Shown here in pieces: positions 1-16,254 of a DNA stretch of 16,254 bases (position 1 is its first letter; each line of letters opens with the position of its first letter). The notes under the pieces are model-generated. The model had not been told where the DNA came from and did no database searches. It was given only the letters and a program-made list of their open reading frames with translations. Where the stretch lies: positions 1 through 16,254 of the forward strand of contig JAHFZE010000060.1 of the NCBI GenBank assembly GCA_020854785.1, given 5' to 3'. Source of the DNA: Methanomethylovorans sp. Lineage in GTDB: Archaea; Halobacteriota; Methanosarcinia; Methanosarcinales; Methanosarcinaceae. The position numbers were made by a program, and so were the translations under genes.

Positions 1-2957
1 AGGTTACCGTAAAGTTGTATCGTACTGTTACGGTAAAGAGCCATCATTGCAGTTTCATGATCATCCTTCGCATCCTGATAGTTATGGATCTTCTCGTGCA
101 TCGTGGCAAGATCACCATAAAGGCCAGCTTCTATTATAGGTGGTGTAAGATGGTCTATTATAACGGCATTACCACGGCGCTTGGCCTGGGTGCCTTCCCC
201 CACGTTATCCATAATGTAGGGGTAGATGACGGGTGTCTCAGCCACCATGATAGACGGATAGTCATATCTCCACAGACCGACTTCATTTCCTGGGAGCCAT
301 TCCTGTGTGCCGTGGGTACCGAAGTGGATCATGGCATCTGCATCGTATATGTCGTTGATCCAGAAATATGTCGCAAGATATTGGTGTGTTGGAGGTATTG
401 AGGAATTGTGGTATATAAGAGACTCATCAGACTGTCCTGCTCTTGTTGGCTGGGGTATGAAATTGACATTTCCAAGCTGGATGGTCGGTATTACAAAGAA
501 CTTCCCACTTCTATCCTCATAGGTCATGACCTCACCGGGCGCTTTTCCCCATGTGTCCTCTACCTCTGTGCGCACACTAGCCGGCAACGTATCGTACCAT
601 TCAAGATATTCCTCCACAGGGAGAAGGGTCACGTATCCGGACTGTACTACTTTCTCAAGCTCTCCGGGCGCCCATGTGCCGACATTCCTGCTTTCAATGA
701 ACAGATCGATGAACTCACTACCGTTTGGAATTGTACCATTGCCTATGTTATAGCCTGCAGCATGCATGTCTTCCAGAAGCAGGGTGAAACTTGAGCCTAT
801 GTCCAGGTAACTGGCTCCAATATTGTTCTTTCCACCCTCGTGGTTATAATAAAGGATGGTGACCTTCTTGTCAGCATTTGCTGCTCTACCAAGTTCCGCC
901 CATGCAATTGCCCTGTCACATATCCATTCGACCTGACATTCAAGAGGTTCATAGTAATACTGTTCTGTTGCTTCATCCTGCACCCTTCCTGCAACCCATA
1001 TGTAATCAGTAAGCCCGTCTATTTCAGGCTGTGTGACCTGATATGGGATGGATGTGCTGCTTAATCCCAGCACACTTTTATTGAACTCTTCAGGCGTCTG
1101 GTAATAATCCTGTATTCCTTTGATTACAGGTACATTGTACTTTTGCAAATACTCCATACCTTTTTCATGGTCATTATAGTTAAGATAAAAACCTTTCAGT
1201 GAAATAATGGAATCAACAAGCACATCCCCATTCATCGTGAAGTAATCAACATCATTCTCACATACGGCATAAGTAGTGTAGATGACATTGCATCCTTTTG
1301 ATTCAAGCTCTCTGATAATGGCATCCTCTGAATTGTATTCAATGGATGTCTTACCCAGTCTATTACCGATTATTCCAATTGTAGGAGCCGACGCATTGTA
1401 ACCGTTATCGGCATACCAATCGAGATATTCAGTACTGTTGACAAAGGTCCTTGGGAACGCATCCGGATGATATATCCCATCATCAGGGATGATAGGCGCC
1501 TCTGGAGAAGAGTATTCAATATAGATGTTCTCAAGGGTAGCTCCAATGCAACGGACCCAGCTCTCCATATTGTTATATCCATCATAGTATAGGTAATCGG
1601 TCATTGCAGAGTATGGAGGATTTCCCATGTCAATTGTTGCTATTCCATACACATCAGCCAGCATACCGAACATTCCGATCTGAGCTCCGTTGTTCTTTGC
1701 AGCAAGCAGGTCATCCTTTATTACAGGAAGTTCGTTGGCTCCCACCATGTATAATATTATCACATCTTCATTGGTAATATCAATTGAACTGTTTATGGCC
1801 TCCCCGCCTGTCATGACATTGACATTGAAAATATCTGTGATAACTGCTCTTTCAGCAAGCACCTGCTTCAGATAATATACACTGGAATCCGAATTGATGA
1901 TGTAAGTGATATTAACTTTCTCTTGTAGGACCTCTGGCTCAGCAAGTGTTTGTCCTGCAAAGGCGCCTGAGAACTGCTGGCCCATGAACTTCAGCATGTT
2001 GACCATATTGGTCTCTCCACCCTGCACCCAGTATATTTCGATATCAGTGTAATTGCCAGAATAGAGGTCAACATTTGGCAGGGTTATGTTCTCGGAAAGA
2101 TTATAACCTATGACCATTGTGCCATTAGCTTTGGCAGCGTTTATACCGGGGACCCAGTTCGTAACAGCAGCTTCATCCCTGGATTCAATGAATATCATAG
2201 CATATCCGGAGAAGTCAATATCCTGCGGCAATGTTTCACTCCTTGAAATAACGGTTGTACTTAGTTCTGAGGATATATCTGATGCTGCCACAGCATTATT
2301 AAGGGTAGCAGTATTAACATCTGTGCCCAAGATAAAGAGGAACTTCACATCTCCGCTTCCAACTGAGCTACCGCCAGTTGAACTGTTGTCATTAGAGCCA
2401 TCATCAGTGGAGTCTTGACCACTTTCAATGATCTCAGAGAGATTGCTATATTCTGTTGCAAGATATATCAGCAAGTTCTCTGCATTTCTAAAATCTTCGC
2501 CCGTGGTACCCATATTATTATAATAGGTGTCGATAAGCTCTGTTGAAGAACCGTCGGATATGTAGTCAAAATATTCAGGCGTCCCCAGGGATCTTATGTC
2601 CACAAAAGATGTTCCATTGTCCTTTGCAGCCTTGAACGACAGACCCATGGGATCAAAGACCGCACTTGACAACATATCAGTAAAAATAACATCTTGCTCC
2701 ATCAATAGCCCTGAACTCGCTGCTGCGAGCAGTTCATCGCTGGGAGCAGACCAGGTAGTAGTGTTGAAAGATGGCACATAAGTGAACACTACATCTGAAC
2801 TGTATGCCATGGACTGGCTTGCTGCTTCAAGAGCAGGGCTGGGAGTCCAGGCAATATACATTATATCTATTTTGGTTTCGTCTGCCGATACCACTGTTGT
2901 TAAGGATGTCAACAACAATACACTTAATACCAATGTAAGTACATAGTTTCTTTGCAT
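1..2957 (-). CDS. Secreted CobN-like chelatase large subunit (C-terminus cut by window edge)
   Basis: Homologue of the large subunit of cobaltochelatase/Mg-chelatase (CobN/BchH/ChlH family), which inserts a metal into a tetrapyrrole ring. 985 codons are visible with no stop; the family is usually about 1,200-1,300 residues, so roughly the last fifth is missing. Residues 1-25 form a signal peptide (short basic start, hydrophobic core, likely cleavage after VSA), so the protein probably works outside the membrane, unlike cytoplasmic CobN. An N-terminal domain (about 28-178) is followed by a Ser/Asn/Gly/Asp-rich linker (about 180-203). Family signatures lie near the visible end: HFGTHGTQEWLPG at 878-890 and YPYIMDNVGEGTQAKRR at 912-928. 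Many N-x-S/T sites fit export. The ATG at 2957 follows a GGGGG Shine-Dalgarno inside an inverted repeat. It is the last of four minus-strand genes with ExbB-, ExbD- and DUF2162-like proteins. Family is certain; substrate and metal are unknown. Confidence 0.88.
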   Translation of the reverse strand, partial: MQRNYVLTLVLSVLLLTSLTTVVSADETKIDIMYIAWTPSPALEAASQSMAYSSDVVFTYVPSFNTTTWSAPSDELLAAASSGLLMEQDVIFTDMLSSAVFDPMGLSFKAAKDNGTSFVDIRSLGTPEYFDYISDGSSTELIDTYYNNMGTTGEDFRNAENLLIYLATEYSNLSEIIESGQDSTDDGSNDNSSTGGSSVGSGDVKFLFILGTDVNTATLNNAVAASDISSELSTTVISRSETLPQDIDFSGYAMIFIESRDEAAVTNWVPGINAAKANGTMVIGYNLSENITLPNVDLYSGNYTDIEIYWVQGGETNMVNMLKFMGQQFSGAFAGQTLAEPEVLQEKVNITYIINSDSSVYYLKQVLAERAVITDIFNVNVMTGGEAINSSIDITNEDVIILYMVGANELPVIKDDLLAAKNNGAQIGMFGMLADVYGIATIDMGNPPYSAMTDYLYYDGYNNMESWVRCIGATLENIYIEYSSPEAPIIPDDGIYHPDAFPRTFVNSTEYLDWYADNGYNASAPTIGIIGNRLGKTSIEYNSEDAIIRELESKGCNVIYTTYAVCENDVDYFTMNGDVLVDSIISLKGFYLNYNDHEKGMEYLQKYNVPVIKGIQDYYQTPEEFNKSVLGLSSTSIPYQVTQPEIDGLTDYIWVAGRVQDEATEQYYYEPLECQVEWICDRAIAWAELGRAANADKKVTILYYNHEGGKNNIGASYLDIGSSFTLLLEDMHAAGYNIGNGTIPNGSEFIDLFIESRNVGTWAPGELEKVVQSGYVTLLPVEEYLEWYDTLPASVRTEVEDTWGKAPGEVMTYEDRSGKFFVIPTIQLGNVNFIPQPTRAGQSDESLIYHNSSIPPTHQYLATYFWINDIYDADAMIHFGTHGTQEWLPGNEVGLWRYDYPSIMVAETPVIYPYIMDNVGEGTQAKRRGNAVIIDHLTPPIIEAGLYGDLATMHEKIHNYQDAKDDHETAMMALYRNSTIQLYGN

Positions 2958-2973
2958 GTTATCCCCCGATAAC
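2958..2973 (-). promoter_or_regulatory. Inverted repeat enclosing the CobN-like gene's ribosome binding site
   Basis: GTTATC and GATAAC, perfect 6-bp inverted arms separated by GGGG, sit immediately before the ATG (read on the minus strand GTTATCGGGGGATAAC). The G-run is the likely Shine-Dalgarno, so a hairpin would place it in the loop, or a dimeric protein could bind here. The repeat is seen directly; a regulatory role is inferred. Confidence 0.4.
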
Positions 2974-3065
2974 GTGTGCTGAGCACTTCGGATACATTGC
3001 TTGGCGGCGGTACCGAAGTGCCTGCTTATTAGATATTTTTTGTTTTACTCCACTATATGAACAAA
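2974..3065 (-). promoter_or_regulatory. Leader region of the CobN-like gene: 9-bp inverted repeat and possible TATA box
   Basis: This is by far the longest gap inside the four-gene unit, whose other junctions overlap or nearly touch. It holds a perfect 9-bp inverted repeat, GCACTTCGG at 2983-2991 and CCGAAGTGC at 3013-3021, with a 21-nt spacer. Further upstream, an A/T-rich AAAAAATATCTAATAAG (minus strand, about 3026-3042) could be a TATA box for separate transcription of the chelatase gene. No U-run follows the stem, so it is a poor intrinsic terminator; a processing site, attenuator or operator are alternatives. Confidence 0.4.
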
Positions 3066-3428
3066 TTAAGTAGTAGTCCCGTTCCCACTTTCCGGCACAT
3101 ACACCACTCTTCCATCAGCCAGCTTGTATGCAGTGCCAAGCACATCACCTGTACCGCCACCGATCTGGTCGGTAAGGTTCATCACTTCGATGGGCTGACC
3201 CTTTTCTTTTATGATGATCTTCATATCCTCCTGCCCGGGATTCTTCACAATGGTTATATCATCGGTGTTGCTGAGCAGTTCAGGTAACTGATAAGACATG
3301 ACCAGTGCGATCAGCAGGGCCACGGAGAATACCATGGCTATATCAAAAAGATTAGCAACGCCGGTTAGAGGGTTGACCTCATCGGCATCATAGAGTAGCC
3401 CTGTTCTCCTGAAACGTTTCTGTTTCAT
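3066..3428 (-). CDS. DUF2149 protein, ExbD-like single-pass membrane protein
   Basis: A 120-residue protein of the DUF2149 family. It has a basic cytoplasmic N-terminus, one membrane segment (about 27-46) and a polar domain outside, the topology of ExbD/TolR/MotB stator partners. Asp29 at the start of the membrane segment (NLFDIAMVF) occupies the place where ExbD and TolR carry their essential proton-handling aspartate; this parallel is inferred. The C-terminal part (about 58-116) contains short beta-strand-like stretches (KIIIKEKGQ, GRVVYVPES). Its ATG overlaps the stop of the ExbB-like gene by 4 nt (ATGA), indicating translational coupling and fixing the start. It most likely forms a stator with that channel and engages the exported CobN-like protein encoded next. 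The domain family is confidently recognised; the mechanical role is not shown by sequence. Confidence 0.82.
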   Translation of the reverse strand: MKQKRFRRTGLLYDADEVNPLTGVANLFDIAMVFSVALLIALVMSYQLPELLSNTDDITIVKNPGQEDMKIIIKEKGQPIEVMNLTDQIGGGTGDVLGTAYKLADGRVVYVPESGNGTTT

Positions 3429-4048
3429 TCCTTTGCCTCCAGGCTATCGAGGATGTAATCGATATCTGCCATATCCTGCCAGTACCATCTCTTCCGTACC
3501 TGGGTGAGCACATAAGAGATACTGCCTGCGAAAAGGCCTACAACTGTAGTTGCAAAGGCTATCATCAGATTATTGGCAAGCTGCACGATGTCACCCTGAG
3601 ATAAGCCAATAAGGGCAGGTCCCAGAGGAATGAGGGTGCCCATCAATCCAAGCATGGGCGCGACAGTTGATATGATACGTGTCTGCTCAAGTTTCTTTGC
3701 CATCTTGATCTCATATTCCTCGGACAACCACTCAATTGCAGGGACCCTATTCTTTTCCAGATGACCGGCCGCAGCATGTGCAAAAGATGTTACTATAAAG
3801 TTCTGTTTTATTTTTCTCAGAGCCTCTGCAGCAAAATCAAAATTCGATAGTTTGATATTATTTTGTACCTCAAGACATACAATTTCCAGATTATTGGTGT
3901 CCCTGCTCCTTTTTGCATATTCGGACAGAAACTCTCCTATCATTATCAGAGAGAGCAAAGACATGAGTATCAGAATTATAACCACAGGGTACAGCAAAGA
4001 AGATGAGAAAGTGTAGAGTATAGAAAATACGGAGGAAGTAACAGTCAT
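3425..4048 (-). CDS. MotA/TolQ/ExbB-type proton channel protein
   Basis: A 207-residue member of the MotA/TolQ/ExbB family, the ion-conducting part of proton-driven motors. Membrane segments are predicted at about 17-38, 126-148 and 160-182. The family signatures are visible: APMLGLMGTLIPLG at 130-143 and ATTVVGLFAG at 166-175; the loop between the first and second segments is long and cytoplasmic, as in ExbB. The ATG at 4048 is preferred because it lies one base after the DUF2162 stop and has GGAG about 11 nt upstream. An in-frame GTG at 4084 and ATG at 4078 would add 12 or 10 residues and overlap the preceding gene by about 35 nt. The stop overlaps the DUF2149 start (ATGA). Archaea of this group lack an outer membrane, so the usual TonB role does not apply; energising the exported chelatase-like protein is the contextual guess. 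Confidence 0.88.
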   Translation of the reverse strand: MTVTSSVFSILYTFSSSLLYPVVIILILMSLLSLIMIGEFLSEYAKRSRDTNNLEIVCLEVQNNIKLSNFDFAAEALRKIKQNFIVTSFAHAAAGHLEKNRVPAIEWLSEEYEIKMAKKLEQTRIISTVAPMLGLMGTLIPLGPALIGLSQGDIVQLANNLMIAFATTVVGLFAGSISYVLTQVRKRWYWQDMADIDYILDSLEAKE

Positions 4049-4049
4049 G

Positions 4050-4721
4050 TTATACACTTCTCCGGCTTCCGATAACATATCCACATATAACTAGCCCGGT
4101 AAGCACAAGCAAGGGAATGATATCAAGTTCTCCCCCTGTTGGCGGTATATTAAGCTGTTTTGACTTTATGTAAGCTGGTACGAGCATGGAACCAAGCAGG
4201 TAGAATATACCCAGGAACATCATCACCGCTCCAAGGTCTTCAGGTGTACGATGCATTTTCCGGAATATCCAGGTGGAAGATATGACTGTAATGAAAAAGA
4301 CAAAGCCTACCAATGCTCCAATTTTAAGTCCGTTCCATCCAAGTGTGGATGCAAGTATCATGCTGGATACAAAAAGAGCTGTCAGGCACACAGGACATGG
4401 CACTGAGATAAAAAGGAAAGTGTGCCTGGAAACGTCATGTCCGCATGACCACTTCTTCTGAGTGTAGATGCCGGCTCCTATAAGGAGCAAGGCCACTACT
4501 ACATGCAGGGTCATCCCCATGCTGGTTATCACATCCAGATTTGACTGGTCCACCAGTCCTATAAGGCCGCCAAGTATTACGGAAATCACAAAGTAACTTG
4601 CAGCTATGATCAAAGTCTCTTTTTTACTGATGTTGGAAAAGCCACATCCAACACCTGTCTTCAGGGCAAATATCATTATCCCTAACAGGATACCAACGAC
4701 TATAGCATAAACAGAATTCAT
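4050..4721 (-). CDS. DUF2162 polytopic membrane protein, putative transporter
   Basis: A 223-residue integral membrane protein of the DUF2162 family with about seven hydrophobic segments (about 4-20, 36-56, 68-86, 102-124, 132-152, 165-185, 200-217). Function is unknown; it is often labelled a putative transporter. Cys/His positions stand out: Cys26 in GVGCGFSN, Cys93 and His95 in WSCGHD, His100, and a CPVC pair at 109-112 entering a membrane segment. These could bind metal or act as a redox pair, which would suit a metal or tetrapyrrole route, but that is inference. It is the first gene of the unit: a TATA box lies 27-34 bases upstream and AGGAGAG precedes the ATG. Its stop at 4050 almost abuts the ExbB-like start. 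Confidence 0.8.
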   Translation of the reverse strand: MNSVYAIVVGILLGIMIFALKTGVGCGFSNISKKETLIIAASYFVISVILGGLIGLVDQSNLDVITSMGMTLHVVVALLLIGAGIYTQKKWSCGHDVSRHTFLFISVPCPVCLTALFVSSMILASTLGWNGLKIGALVGFVFFITVISSTWIFRKMHRTPEDLGAVMMFLGIFYLLGSMLVPAYIKSKQLNIPPTGGELDIIPLLVLTGLVICGYVIGSRRSV

Positions 4722-14231: not shown

Positions 14232-15638
14232 ATGTACCGTTACCTTTGCGACCCCTCTGTCAAGAATGTAGCTGTCCTCGATATGACACATGGAGGCATT
14301 GTCATCGCCCGCAAGCTCAAAGAGCTGGGGTTGAATGTAACAGGAGTGGATGTTTATGGAACACTCTCCCCCGAACAATGTAACGCTATGGAGATAGATG
14401 GTATATGGGTGTCAGAAAAGAGCTGCCCTATTGAGGAAATGGATCTTATAATTAGCCCTGTTCACCTTTATCCCGACCACATTATGCTTCAGCAGGCTGA
14501 AGAAAAGCATGTCCCCGTAATATCTCATCACAGAGCTGTTGGAGAGATCCTGACAATAAAATATATTGATCACCATTCACTCATGATCGAGGTCACAGGC
14601 ACCAAGGCAAAGACCAGTACTGCTTCTCTGCTTGCCGATATGATCTCAAGGAAGCTTACTGTTGTGCTGCACACTTCCAGAGGACTGGAATTATGGGAAG
14701 ACGGTATATGCCGACTGCTACACAGAGGACTGAGCATTGCCCCTGGGAGCATTTTACAGGCAGTGGACATTGCAGGATCACTGGAAAGAAAGATAGAAGC
14801 TTACATCTTCGAGATATCTCTTGGAGTTACAGGATTTGGAAGTGTTGGTATCATCACAACACTTGATATGGATTACATGATCGCAGGTAAAACATCCATG
14901 GCAAGCGAGGCAAAGATCAGGTCACTCATCAGTTACCCCGAAGATGCGCTCCTTGTGCTCAATGATAGCTGCAGGGGAGAATTGCAGCAACTCGAACAAG
15001 CAATTATGTCGAAACGTATCAGAACTTTCAGTACCCTGGACAAAAATGAAGGTCTAACTTCGGATACTGACTATAGGATCAGCATGCACGGTAATAGTTT
15101 ATCCATTGCATATACAGGAGAGGAAATTGGGATCAGCCTCGCAGCTGGATATGATGCAAGATCATACATGACGGCTTTTGCTGCATCCAGCGTCACTTCC
15201 TTTGAGATGGGCATTCCATGGGAAACTGTAAAAGAAGTTCTACAGAATTTCAGGGGTTTGCAGGGCAGAATGCAGGAAATGATACAAGAGGACATAAGCA
15301 TCCTTGATAACTCCAATTCTGGCATGGATATCGTTTCAGTAGAAAAGGCTCTGAACCTGTGCATGAAAAGAAAGCAAAAGGTGATCATGGTGCTTGGCGA
15401 AGAGACAGCACAGGTATGCGAAGGACTGCCGCCGGAGGATGTTGCCGATCTGCTCAGAAACAGGCTGCAAGACATGGGTGAAGTGATACTGGTGGGTGAA
15501 AGGATGAAAAGCATGGCAACTGAAAATATACGCTATGCAGAGAGCTTTGATATGGGAAAGGCACTTGCAATGGAACTTGCCAGGATAAAGATCGATGATA
15601 AAGTTATTATTGCTCTGTGTGTGAAGTGCTTCCGCTGA
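14232..15638 (+). CDS. cfbE: Coenzyme F430 synthetase CfbE (Mur ligase family)
   Basis: ATP-dependent enzyme that closes the six-membered carbocyclic ring of 15,17(3)-seco-F430-17(3)-acid, the last step in making F430, the nickel cofactor of methyl-coenzyme M reductase. 468 residues with Mur-ligase layout: an N-terminal Rossmann-like part (VAVLDMTHGGIVIARKLKELG, 13-33), a central ATPase domain with P-loop TGTKAKTST at 122-130, and a C-terminal domain containing NFRGLQGRMQE. The P-loop has Ala where Mur enzymes usually have Gly (GTNGKT). The ATG has only a weak upstream CCGGTT; no better in-frame start is seen. cfbD follows about 140 nt later, confirming the pathway. Confidence 0.93.
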   Translation: MYRYLCDPSVKNVAVLDMTHGGIVIARKLKELGLNVTGVDVYGTLSPEQCNAMEIDGIWVSEKSCPIEEMDLIISPVHLYPDHIMLQQAEEKHVPVISHHRAVGEILTIKYIDHHSLMIEVTGTKAKTSTASLLADMISRKLTVVLHTSRGLELWEDGICRLLHRGLSIAPGSILQAVDIAGSLERKIEAYIFEISLGVTGFGSVGIITTLDMDYMIAGKTSMASEAKIRSLISYPEDALLVLNDSCRGELQQLEQAIMSKRIRTFSTLDKNEGLTSDTDYRISMHGNSLSIAYTGEEIGISLAAGYDARSYMTAFAASSVTSFEMGIPWETVKEVLQNFRGLQGRMQEMIQEDISILDNSNSGMDIVSVEKALNLCMKRKQKVIMVLGEETAQVCEGLPPEDVADLLRNRLQDMGEVILVGERMKSMATENIRYAESFDMGKALAMELARIKIDDKVIIALCVKCFR

Positions 15639-15778
15639 AAAGATGGGGCCTGTACATAAAATAGCCCTTTTATAGCAGAAGGCTGTAGTATATGCAAAAG
15701 TGACGTTTGATTAAGTGTAAAAAATCATACTTCTTGAAGCAAATATCATAACATTGATTTAACACCATGGAGAATAGC
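15639..15778 (+). promoter_or_regulatory. cfbE-cfbD spacer and cfbD ribosome binding site
   Basis: GGAG at 15769-15772 is 6 nt before the ATG at 15779 and is the likely Shine-Dalgarno. The 140-nt spacer is long for an operon; TTTTATAG (15667-15674) and GTAGTATATGC (about 15686-15696) are TATA-like, so cfbD may also have its own promoter. Confidence 0.4.
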
Positions 15779-16254
15779 ATGGCTGCGAATGACATATCTA
15801 TAATACACCCCAGACCTAGTTCGATAGTTGCCGCATTATACACACTAAGGGACCTAAATGTAGATGTTGCCATATTGCATGGCCCCCCTGGATGCTCTTT
15901 TAAGCATGCGAGACTCCTGGAGGAAGACGGGATACATGTAGTTACCACAGCCCTTGATGAAAATGGTTTTGTGTTTGGAGGGCGCAGAGAGCTTTCTTCT
16001 GTGCTGCAAAAGGTCAATGAGATGTTCCATCCTAAGTTGATTGGTGTAGTAGGGACATGCGCGAGCATGATCATTGGAGAAGAACTGCATGAGCCGGTGA
16101 TGGATGCAGATCTGGACGTACCAGTGATAGAGGTCGAGGTCCATGCAGGATATGCAAATAATACAAAAGGGGTGCTGCTCACTCTGGAATCTGCGCTGGA
16201 TATAGGTGTTATCGACAGGGAAGAGTTCGAGCGACAGAAAGTGCTCCTGGAAGA
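15779..16254 (+). CDS. cfbD: Ni-sirohydrochlorin a,c-diamide reductive cyclase subunit CfbD (C-terminus cut)
   Basis: NifD-like subunit that, with the NifH-like CfbC, reduces Ni-sirohydrochlorin a,c-diamide by six electrons using ATP hydrolysis and closes a lactam ring, giving seco-F430. The window ends after 158 codons of an expected 350-370. Visible are [19 protein letters not shown] (8-26), [18 protein letters not shown] with a candidate cluster-ligand Cys at about 40, [19 protein letters not shown] with a second Cys at about 93, and [12 protein letters not shown]. The ATG at 15779 gives [15 protein letters not shown], in register with Methanosarcina homologues as I recall them, and has GGAG 6 nt upstream; an ATG at 15767 adds four residues with no Shine-Dalgarno. 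cfbC, cfbB and cfbA may lie beyond the right edge. Confidence 0.93.

Follow-up and report, generated by a model that had tools for sequence, protein, structure and literature searches.

A contig of Methanomethylovorans sp. (JAHFZE010000060.1), analysed over its whole length of 16,254 nucleotides (the window), carries at one end four minus-strand genes that were read, in an earlier note on this DNA, as encoding a DUF2162 membrane protein, a MotA/TolQ/ExbB-type channel, a DUF2149 protein and a CobN-like chelatase. Pfam matches confirm these four families (Table 1). Comparison with related loci supports placing the CobN-like protein in a predicted exported, membrane-anchored class of the CobN fold. 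The operon may be a cell-surface, motor-coupled machine for metal extraction, a reading that we favour tentatively, with slightly less than even confidence. The gene set itself is not new: by gene content and tree position it is an archaeal, outer-membrane-free relative of HmuS-HmuU-HmuV of Bacteroidota, since the exported CobN proteins share a fully supported branch side with HmuS. The overall reading of the earlier note thus stands in part. The exported class, its pairing with a motor and the missing AAA+ partner hold, but the set has already been published as the hmu operon and as the PA1922-PA1925 cluster.

Two classes of archaeal CobN proteins

In a phylum sample of 246 genomes, DUF2149 was found in 78, DUF2162 above the cut-off in 68 and CobN in 148, with at most two CobN candidates scored per genome. 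When the lists were compared by hand, all 68 DUF2162 genomes fell inside the 78 DUF2149 genomes, and 76 of these 78 had a CobN match. Among 14 named control genomes CobN was found in five and DUF2149 in Methanosarcina acetivorans only; a DUF2149 profile matches 5699 proteins in a large protein database. Sequences of the present analysis served to build the profiles used for the four families, for the AAA+ protein and for the head domain. Gene neighbourhoods were classified at 87 archaeal loci: 80 regions picked by DUF2149 hits, which cover 69 of the 78 hit genomes, six regions fetched for known CobN or motor genes, and the window, counted separately. Because selection was by DUF2149, motor or CobN hits, some genomes are counted repeatedly and the module is over-represented in the set. 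All four families are present at 47 of the 87 loci, and 44 of these 47 complete sets have the order DUF2162-ExbB-DUF2149-CobN on one strand, so that the four genes are indeed conserved together in relatives. Of the other 40 loci, some are cut by a contig end, some show no CobN, and in others a gene was dropped by the simple gene calling, which overlooked some genes in the fetched regions. In several operons exported CobN genes are found as tandem pairs or triplets.

By hydropathy, membrane segments are found at both ends in 58 of the 63 complete archaeal CobN proteins that adjoin the motor genes, and 25 of the 29 complete CobN proteins encoded away from the motor have none. The five motor-side exceptions are L057 and L102, with a C-terminal segment only; L075, with masked letters; L083, with no segment; and L128, which was scored as motor-side through a spurious 17-bit ExbB match and belongs among the cytosolic CobN proteins. 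The window protein has the N-terminal segment, and its C-terminal region lies beyond the contig end. Its hydrophobic residues 6-24 look like an N-terminal export signal, in line with the signal peptide recognised earlier and with the two-end anchoring of its relatives. A further set of named loci was drawn with two peptide patterns from the alignment of exported proteins. It comprises 79 loci kept from at least 594 stretches, with 19 anchored, 57 complete unanchored and three cut CobN proteins. DUF2162, ExbB and DUF2149 together accompany 13 of the 19 proteins with a C-terminal anchor, and an AAA+ gene accompanies none of them. For the 57 complete proteins without this anchor, DUF2162 or DUF2149 was found in no case, an ExbB match in one and an AAA+ gene in 31.

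The exported proteins share the fold and the HxGxHG motif with the cytoplasmic CobN and ChlH proteins that work with AAA+ subunits (ChlI/ChlD or CobS/CobT). However, the cytoplasmic proteins are unanchored, lie on the other side of the tree described below and have a ChlI/ChlD-type AAA+ gene in view at 20 of 28 archaeal loci, as judged from a scan of every frame. The same scan found such a gene at none of the 60 loci with exported CobN only, which agrees with the earlier remark that AAA+ partners are missing from the four visible genes. In two of the eight cytosolic loci without a visible AAA+ gene, those of genomes G162 and G236, the gene lies just past the fetched stretch. Among 32 whole genomes tested, 13 have no AAA+ chelatase homologue at E 1e-10: the window's, both congeners tested, five of genus g3 and five more. 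The CobN genes examined in these 13 genomes are all of the exported kind, some candidates, such as the second of G196, lying outside this count.

That the window protein is in truth a common cytoplasmic subunit of cobaltochelatase whose start was misread is scarcely credible. Family libraries do label it CobN, yet it scores under every NCBIfam cut-off. The two-end segments of its relatives, their separate clade and the missing AAA+ partner, both beside the operon and in whole genomes, led us to reject an ordinary cytoplasmic CobN. The genome of the window is 76.5% complete, yet both congeners, which also have no AAA+ homologue, are 99% complete. As far as sequence reaches, we found neither a cytoplasmic location of the CobN-like protein nor relatives in which the four genes are dispersed and accompanied by AAA+ subunits.

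Relation to HmuS and the hmu operon

A tree of 74 rows, whose 30 archaeal exported rows were hand-picked, places 39 exported proteins on one side of a branch with a support of 100 in the SH-like approximate likelihood-ratio test (SH-aLRT). These are the 30 archaeal proteins, three of HmuS type and those of Trichlorobacter, Runella, Pseudoalteromonas, Azospirillum, a comamonad and Diaphorobacter. On the opposite side are the cytosolic CobN proteins of archaea, 29 in number, and six canonical CobN/BchH proteins. A FastTree of 109 rows, from which L075 (masked letters), the second CobN of L055 (cut) and the first of L164 (duplicate) were omitted, repeats the split between exported and cytosolic proteins with a support of 100. 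Both trees are read as unrooted; they have long inner branches, and the order among the bacterial groups is unsure. The matches of the window CobN in the PDB are ChlH, CobN and HmuS.

HmuS has been shown to be a heme de-chelatase, which removes iron from heme and for which His-538 is essential (PMC12583661). Of the 74 archaeal exported rows in the alignment, 67 have His in this column, but this His is a feature of the whole superfamily. The second active-site column (His-1209 of HmuS) contains Asp in 57 and His in six of the 74 rows, and the Glu-1212 column contains Gln in 50 and Glu in six. For the window protein this region lies beyond the contig; contig C197 of the same assembly reads DNDDYYSYFGA there. 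The Asp version is also found in Trichlorobacter, Runella, Pseudoalteromonas, the comamonad and Diaphorobacter, and Azospirillum has His. As to the head-site heme ligands of HmuS, the Met-79 column has Met in three of 74 rows and the His-254 column has His in none, in a part of the alignment made uncertain by tandem heads. Filing the window protein as HmuS was rejected because it would require these ligands and the second active-site His to be conserved, which they are not, and because another protein fills the permease slot. For the methionine-rich insertion of HmuS, a crude Met count gives no sign beside the motor, where it reaches at most 11 per 100 residues, but the count is a weak guide, since it flags only one of the three HmuS-type rows.

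A motif C-x-[HN]-x-T-C, mostly CCHHTC, is located near the C-terminal anchor in 65 of the 74 archaeal exported rows and in none of the 29 cytosolic or three HmuS proteins. In the named set it is found in CCHHTC-type form in 17 of the 19 anchored proteins and in none of the 57 others, and bacterial variants are CGHTTC in Runella and CCDHTC in Trichlorobacter. Head-like domains are also multiplied: among the 71 archaeal motor-side proteins with a match, a single domain is found in 35 and two to seven domains in the other 36, and five bacterial exported proteins, including Bacteroides HmuS, have one each. The largest number, seven, is found in the exported CobN of locus L163 (12599-19453, genome G135), where five near-equal scores in a row suggest recent duplication. 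Exported paralogues in L070, L071, L072, L074 and L106 (its second CobN) have no HxGxHG motif and are perhaps binding proteins only. On the cytosolic side, 12 of the 29 archaeal CobN proteins (L126, L131, L132, L134, L135, L136, L139, L140, L141, L142, L144 and L160) carry a run of three Cys (CCCYFG-type) at the position of the second active-site motif that is Asp or His in other chelatases.

CobN, ExbB and DUF2149 have been published together as HmuS, HmuU and HmuV of the Bacteroidota hmu operon (PMC12583661), whose order is also given in PMC10434189 and PMC10101095; the proteins of Bacteroidota are also treated in PMC13227078 and PMC6460266. Records of Prevotella and Bacteroides give the order HmuY, HmuR, CobN (HmuS), a membrane protein (HmuT), ExbB (HmuU) and DUF2149 (HmuV), and the hmu-type operon of Aureibacter has HmuY and the receptor swapped. 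Like HmuS-HmuT-HmuU-HmuV (HmuS being also known as BtuS), the archaeal operon combines a CobN fold anchored at two ends with ExbB and DUF2149, and its CobN shares with HmuS a common clade and an HFG(T/A)HG motif with the essential His. Unlike the hmu operon, the archaeal loci have neither HmuY nor HmuR, which were not found among their recurrent neighbours, and their order is T-U-V-S instead of S-T-U-V. The archaeal proteins further differ from HmuS in the CCHHTC motif and the multiple head-like domains.

The Zur-regulated PA1922-PA1925 cluster is the same trio (PMC4542158, PMC8456098, PMC8531726, PMC9431628). Likened to the archaeal operon by its published description only, it keeps CobN-like, proton-channel (MotA/ExbB or 'ExbD') and DUF2149 genes together under metal control, but it includes an outer-membrane TonB receptor and is linked to zinc or cobalt. 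Plasmid pGLOV01 of Trichlorobacter lovleyi has a cluster with the archaeal order DUF2162-ExbB-DUF2149-CobN after a TonB receptor and with an Asp-type active site. It differs in being bacterial, in having receptors and a separate ExbB-ExbD-TonB set directly after the four genes, and in its position among B12 genes. For archaea, PMC12583661 calls the use of HmuS/CobN/ChlH homologues unclear and states that complete hmu operons are absent. DUF2149 has been linked to TolQ in methanogens (PMC9425974). Two CobN-like 'BtuS' proteins of Methanosarcina barkeri are up-regulated with Fe(II)/cysteine and with FeS2 compared with Fe(II)/sulfide (PMC10846266). In the largely open-access literature covered, we found neither a paper connecting the archaeal operon with the hmu module nor one that calls the ExbB-DUF2149 pair the motor of the chelatase.

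The motor pair, the permease slot and the candidate metal

The channel identity proposed earlier is confirmed by the family match and by Thr150 (in the numbering of the 219-residue frame), present in 87 of 88 aligned rows, and Thr180, present in 82 of 88. In DUF2149, where the single helix starts, Asp29 is kept in 84 and Asn26 in all of 85 aligned proteins. These residues of the two proteins are candidates for a proton path, by the likeness of their positions to those known in ExbD and ExbB. Like ExbB/ExbD, TolQ/TolR and MotA/MotB, the pair joins a MotA_ExbB domain to a single-pass partner with Asp at the helix start. In contrast to those systems, it adjoins genes for a chelatase, an S-layer protein or giant surface proteins, and DUF2149 has no match to the ExbD family. 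The ExbD topology given to DUF2149 in the earlier note agrees with its one helix, the Asp at its start and an outside domain. With no link to the ExbD family, no solved relative in a sequence search and a poor structural model, 'ExbD-like' rests on topology and on the Asp. The model has a helix at residues 20-47 at low confidence.

The pair is also encoded beside other surface proteins. In four loci of genus g6 (L050, L060, L061 and L062, from G130, G135, G186 and G206) the ExbB-DUF2149 genes adjoin a gene for an 870-residue protein, with neither DUF2162 nor CobN; in L050, the one of the four that was scanned against Pfam, this neighbour is an S-layer protein (PF07752). Giant CARDB-repeat proteins are encoded beside ExbB-DUF2149 in L076 (837-6737), L096 (13012-17979), L105 (2-7045) and L107 (3-2792). 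These four were scanned against Pfam, and three contain PQQ-type propellers (PQQ_2); the giant CARDB proteins end in a C-terminal hydrophobic segment and a basic tail. A further giant protein, outside the scanned four, adjoins the pair in L091 (2-7120). The motor may have a wider function at the archaeal surface, with the chelatase as one of its clients.

A different role is assumed in print for HmuU/HmuV (PMC12583661) and for PA1924 (PMC4542158), namely that of a TonB-type energiser for outer-membrane receptors, which would be unrelated to any movement of the chelatase; TonB-dependent receptors indeed adjoin the set in most annotated plasmid records. However, Trichlorobacter has its separate canonical exbB-exbD-tonB genes right after DUF2162-ExbB-DUF2149-CobN, and no receptor can be seen around ExbB-DUF2149-CobN in the comamonad. 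The ExbB-DUF2149 pair is also kept by archaea, whose cells lack the kind of outer membrane that holds TonB receptors. These facts speak against TonB energising as the only role, and an energiser unconnected with the chelatase is improbable. The earlier idea of a TonB-like mechanism without an outer membrane fits the archaea, but bacteria with an outer membrane have the set too.

DUF2162 was aligned in 66 rows, which include four non-homologous bacterial proteins from the same operon slot. Cys 26, 109 and 112 (CPVC) are conserved in 60, 63 and 62 rows of this alignment. The slot is occupied by DUF2162, by HmuT or, in Runella, by a protein with a weak NicO/DsbD match. Identity of DUF2162 with HmuT was rejected (hhalign probability 3.8), as was identity with the Runella protein (hhalign probability 1.7), all profiles being small and shallow; HmuT is thus not detectably related to DUF2162. 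For DUF2162, a sequence search against solved structures gave a single chance-level row, and a fold search returned no DsbD, CcdA or NicO chain among the 50 matches listed, which leaves these folds possible. DUF2162 proteins of about 400 residues are encoded beside ExbB in L087 (6006-7211), L099 (939-2141) and L107 (8222-9460); the one that was scanned, from L087, has a TPR-like N-terminal part.

Genes for cobalt transporters or corrin-ring synthesis lie beside the exported operon at 11 of 60 archaeal loci (families f7 and f17) and at three of 19 named loci (a Methanomicrobia and a Firmicutes metagenome-assembled genome, and the deltaproteobacterium NaphS2). They were found at none of the 29 motor loci without CobN in view and at none of the three HmuS loci. 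CbiM or CbiQ is adjacent at seven of the 60 exported archaeal and one of the 19 named anchored loci, compared with none of 28 cytosolic, one of 60 other named and none of 29 CobN-less motor loci, and separates exported from ordinary CobN loci better than the corrin genes do. In Runella the gene set is located between hypABF and hypCDE, and in Azospirillum nikR is found near it. Most simply, these sets would be forms of a single engine that handles different metals, each with a permease to match.

The CbiM/CbiQ neighbours, the CCHHTC motif and the separate ExbB-ExbD-TonB set of Trichlorobacter favour motor-driven extraction of a metal, perhaps cobalt. In such a machine, the CobN body would bind a metal chelate, either a tetrapyrrole or a metallophore, around the HxGxHG His and free the metal, with the tandem head domains as possible extra capture arms. 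Proton flow through ExbB and DUF2149 would move the anchored chelatase or the permease, by opening the cleft or by driving hand-off, and would so do the work of the ATP-driven ChlI/D or CobS/T of the cytoplasmic relatives; this replacement of an AAA+ motor by a proton motor acting on the chelatase is what we infer. The freed ion could then be taken by the CCHHTC site and pass through DUF2162. For the DUF2162 type the most likely metal would be cobalt (or nickel), and for the HmuT type iron. We have less confidence, and would not call it probable, that all parts hold jointly: that in archaea and some bacteria the proton-driven pair directly powers a class I chelatase, a surface-anchored CobN fold, which strips extracellular chelates of their cobalt (or, in other cases, of iron, nickel or zinc), that the freed ion is relayed via CCHHTC and a metal-specific permease, and that the archaeal motor also serves S-layer and giant proteins.

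Several observations weigh against a motor-coupled extraction machine. No match to the ExbD family was obtained from 24 DUF2149 proteins at E values up to 5, the DUF2149 model is poor (mean predicted local distance difference test score, pLDDT, of 55.9), DUF2162 has no clear fold match, and ExbB-DUF2149 pairs are also found without CobN in view. Corrin-ring genes flank ordinary CobN too, at five of 28 cytosolic and 30 of 60 other named loci, and alone are thus weak evidence, and in the family of the window itself the operon showed no cobalt gene among its neighbours. Removal of cobalt from a finished corrinoid is chemically hard, and the chelate may therefore be another molecule. The essential His is lost in five of the 74 archaeal exported rows. 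Finally, HmuS made without its membrane segments is active in vitro with NADH (PMC12583661). A motor would thus be dispensable for the chemistry of HmuS, and might serve substrate handling, release or hand-off.

The rows without the essential His would also suit a machine that takes up intact corrinoids or other metallo-tetrapyrroles, in which CobN only binds, the motor drives release to a transporter and the metal is kept. The tandem head domains suggest capture, and FecCD genes occur at five of the 60 exported archaeal loci. This alternative is nevertheless unlikely, as the essential His is kept in most rows, the close transporters in the f7 and f17 loci include the metal-ion importer type CbiM/CbiQ, and the nearest characterised member of the clade is a de-chelatase (PMC12583661). 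Work in the opposite direction, by which a metal would be inserted outside the cell into an exported ring or a metal-loaded carrier would be made, is quite improbable. The cytoplasmic relatives CobN and ChlH do run forward, and chelatases are reversible in principle, but we know of no exported metal-free ring in these methanogens. HmuS, moreover, runs in the direction of removal (PMC12583661).

Should motor-coupled extraction be correct, a proton-driven motor would be added to a chelatase family known with ATP-driven partners. Archaeal homologues that group with HmuS are now identified together with their U and V partners, in cells without an outer membrane and often without an AAA+ motor. The assumption that U and V power a receptor can thereby be tested against the alternative that they power the chelatase or the permease. 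Since methanogens need much cobalt, nickel and iron, a candidate surface metal scavenger is also of practical interest.

The operon in the window and its surroundings

The features of the operon are listed in Table 1. A simple hydropathy scan gives three membrane segments for ExbB and one each for DUF2149 and CobN. For the ExbB gene, the ATG at 4048 is a more likely start than position 4084, where the longest frame begins, and gives a protein of 207 residues, a length typical of many relatives. With this start the DUF2162 and ExbB genes abut without overlapping. The earlier statement that the first three genes overlap or abut is therefore retained for the 4-base overlap of DUF2149 and ExbB and for the likely abutment of ExbB and DUF2162, whose overlap is less likely. 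The spacing between DUF2149 and CobN is 108 bases.

Table 1. Position of the predicted operon features in the window
Feature	Coordinates	Strand	Basis and remarks
DUF2162 polytopic membrane protein	4050..4721	-	PF09930, E 6.3e-68; 223 residues; seven predicted membrane segments
MotA/TolQ/ExbB-type channel	3425..4048 (longest frame 3425-4084)	-	PF01618, E 4e-11
DUF2149 protein	3066..3428	-	PF09919, E 4.6e-34; 120 residues; single helix on the N-terminal side; beta-rich outside part
CobN/ChlH/HmuS-fold protein, predicted exported class	3..2957	-	PF02514 (CobN-Mg_chel), E 9.8e-160; first 985 residues
CobN hydrophobic export signal or N-terminal anchor (putative), residues 6-24	2886..2942	-	hydropathy 2.23 across 19 residues
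CobN head-like domain 1, residues 30-174	2436..2870	-	profile built from sequences of the present analysis
CobN head-like domain 2, residues 205-331	1965..2345	-	same head-domain profile
CobN head-like domain 3, residues 348-474	1536..1916	-	same head-domain profile
CobN HFGTHG motif, residues 878-883	309..326	-	alignment; second His corresponds to essential His-538 of HmuS

The window is one whole contig of a 2.06 Mb assembly. As the CobN gene is broken off at its end, the four visible genes are a truncated view. Bases 1-909 of contig C197 are 92% identical to bases 1-909 of the window, within the CobN gene, and C197 carries the gene on to a C-terminal membrane segment and contains the start of a second exported CobN. 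The overlap may reflect a strain variant or a near copy that broke the assembly, and that the two contigs are one molecule is unproven. The closest named relatives of the DUF2149 and DUF2162 proteins are those of Methanomethylovorans and Methanolobus. The neighbours common to eight loci that have the flank of the window look like housekeeping genes. About 10 kb from the operon, the window encodes the coenzyme F430 synthase CfbE (14232-15638) and the start of CfbD (15767-16252).

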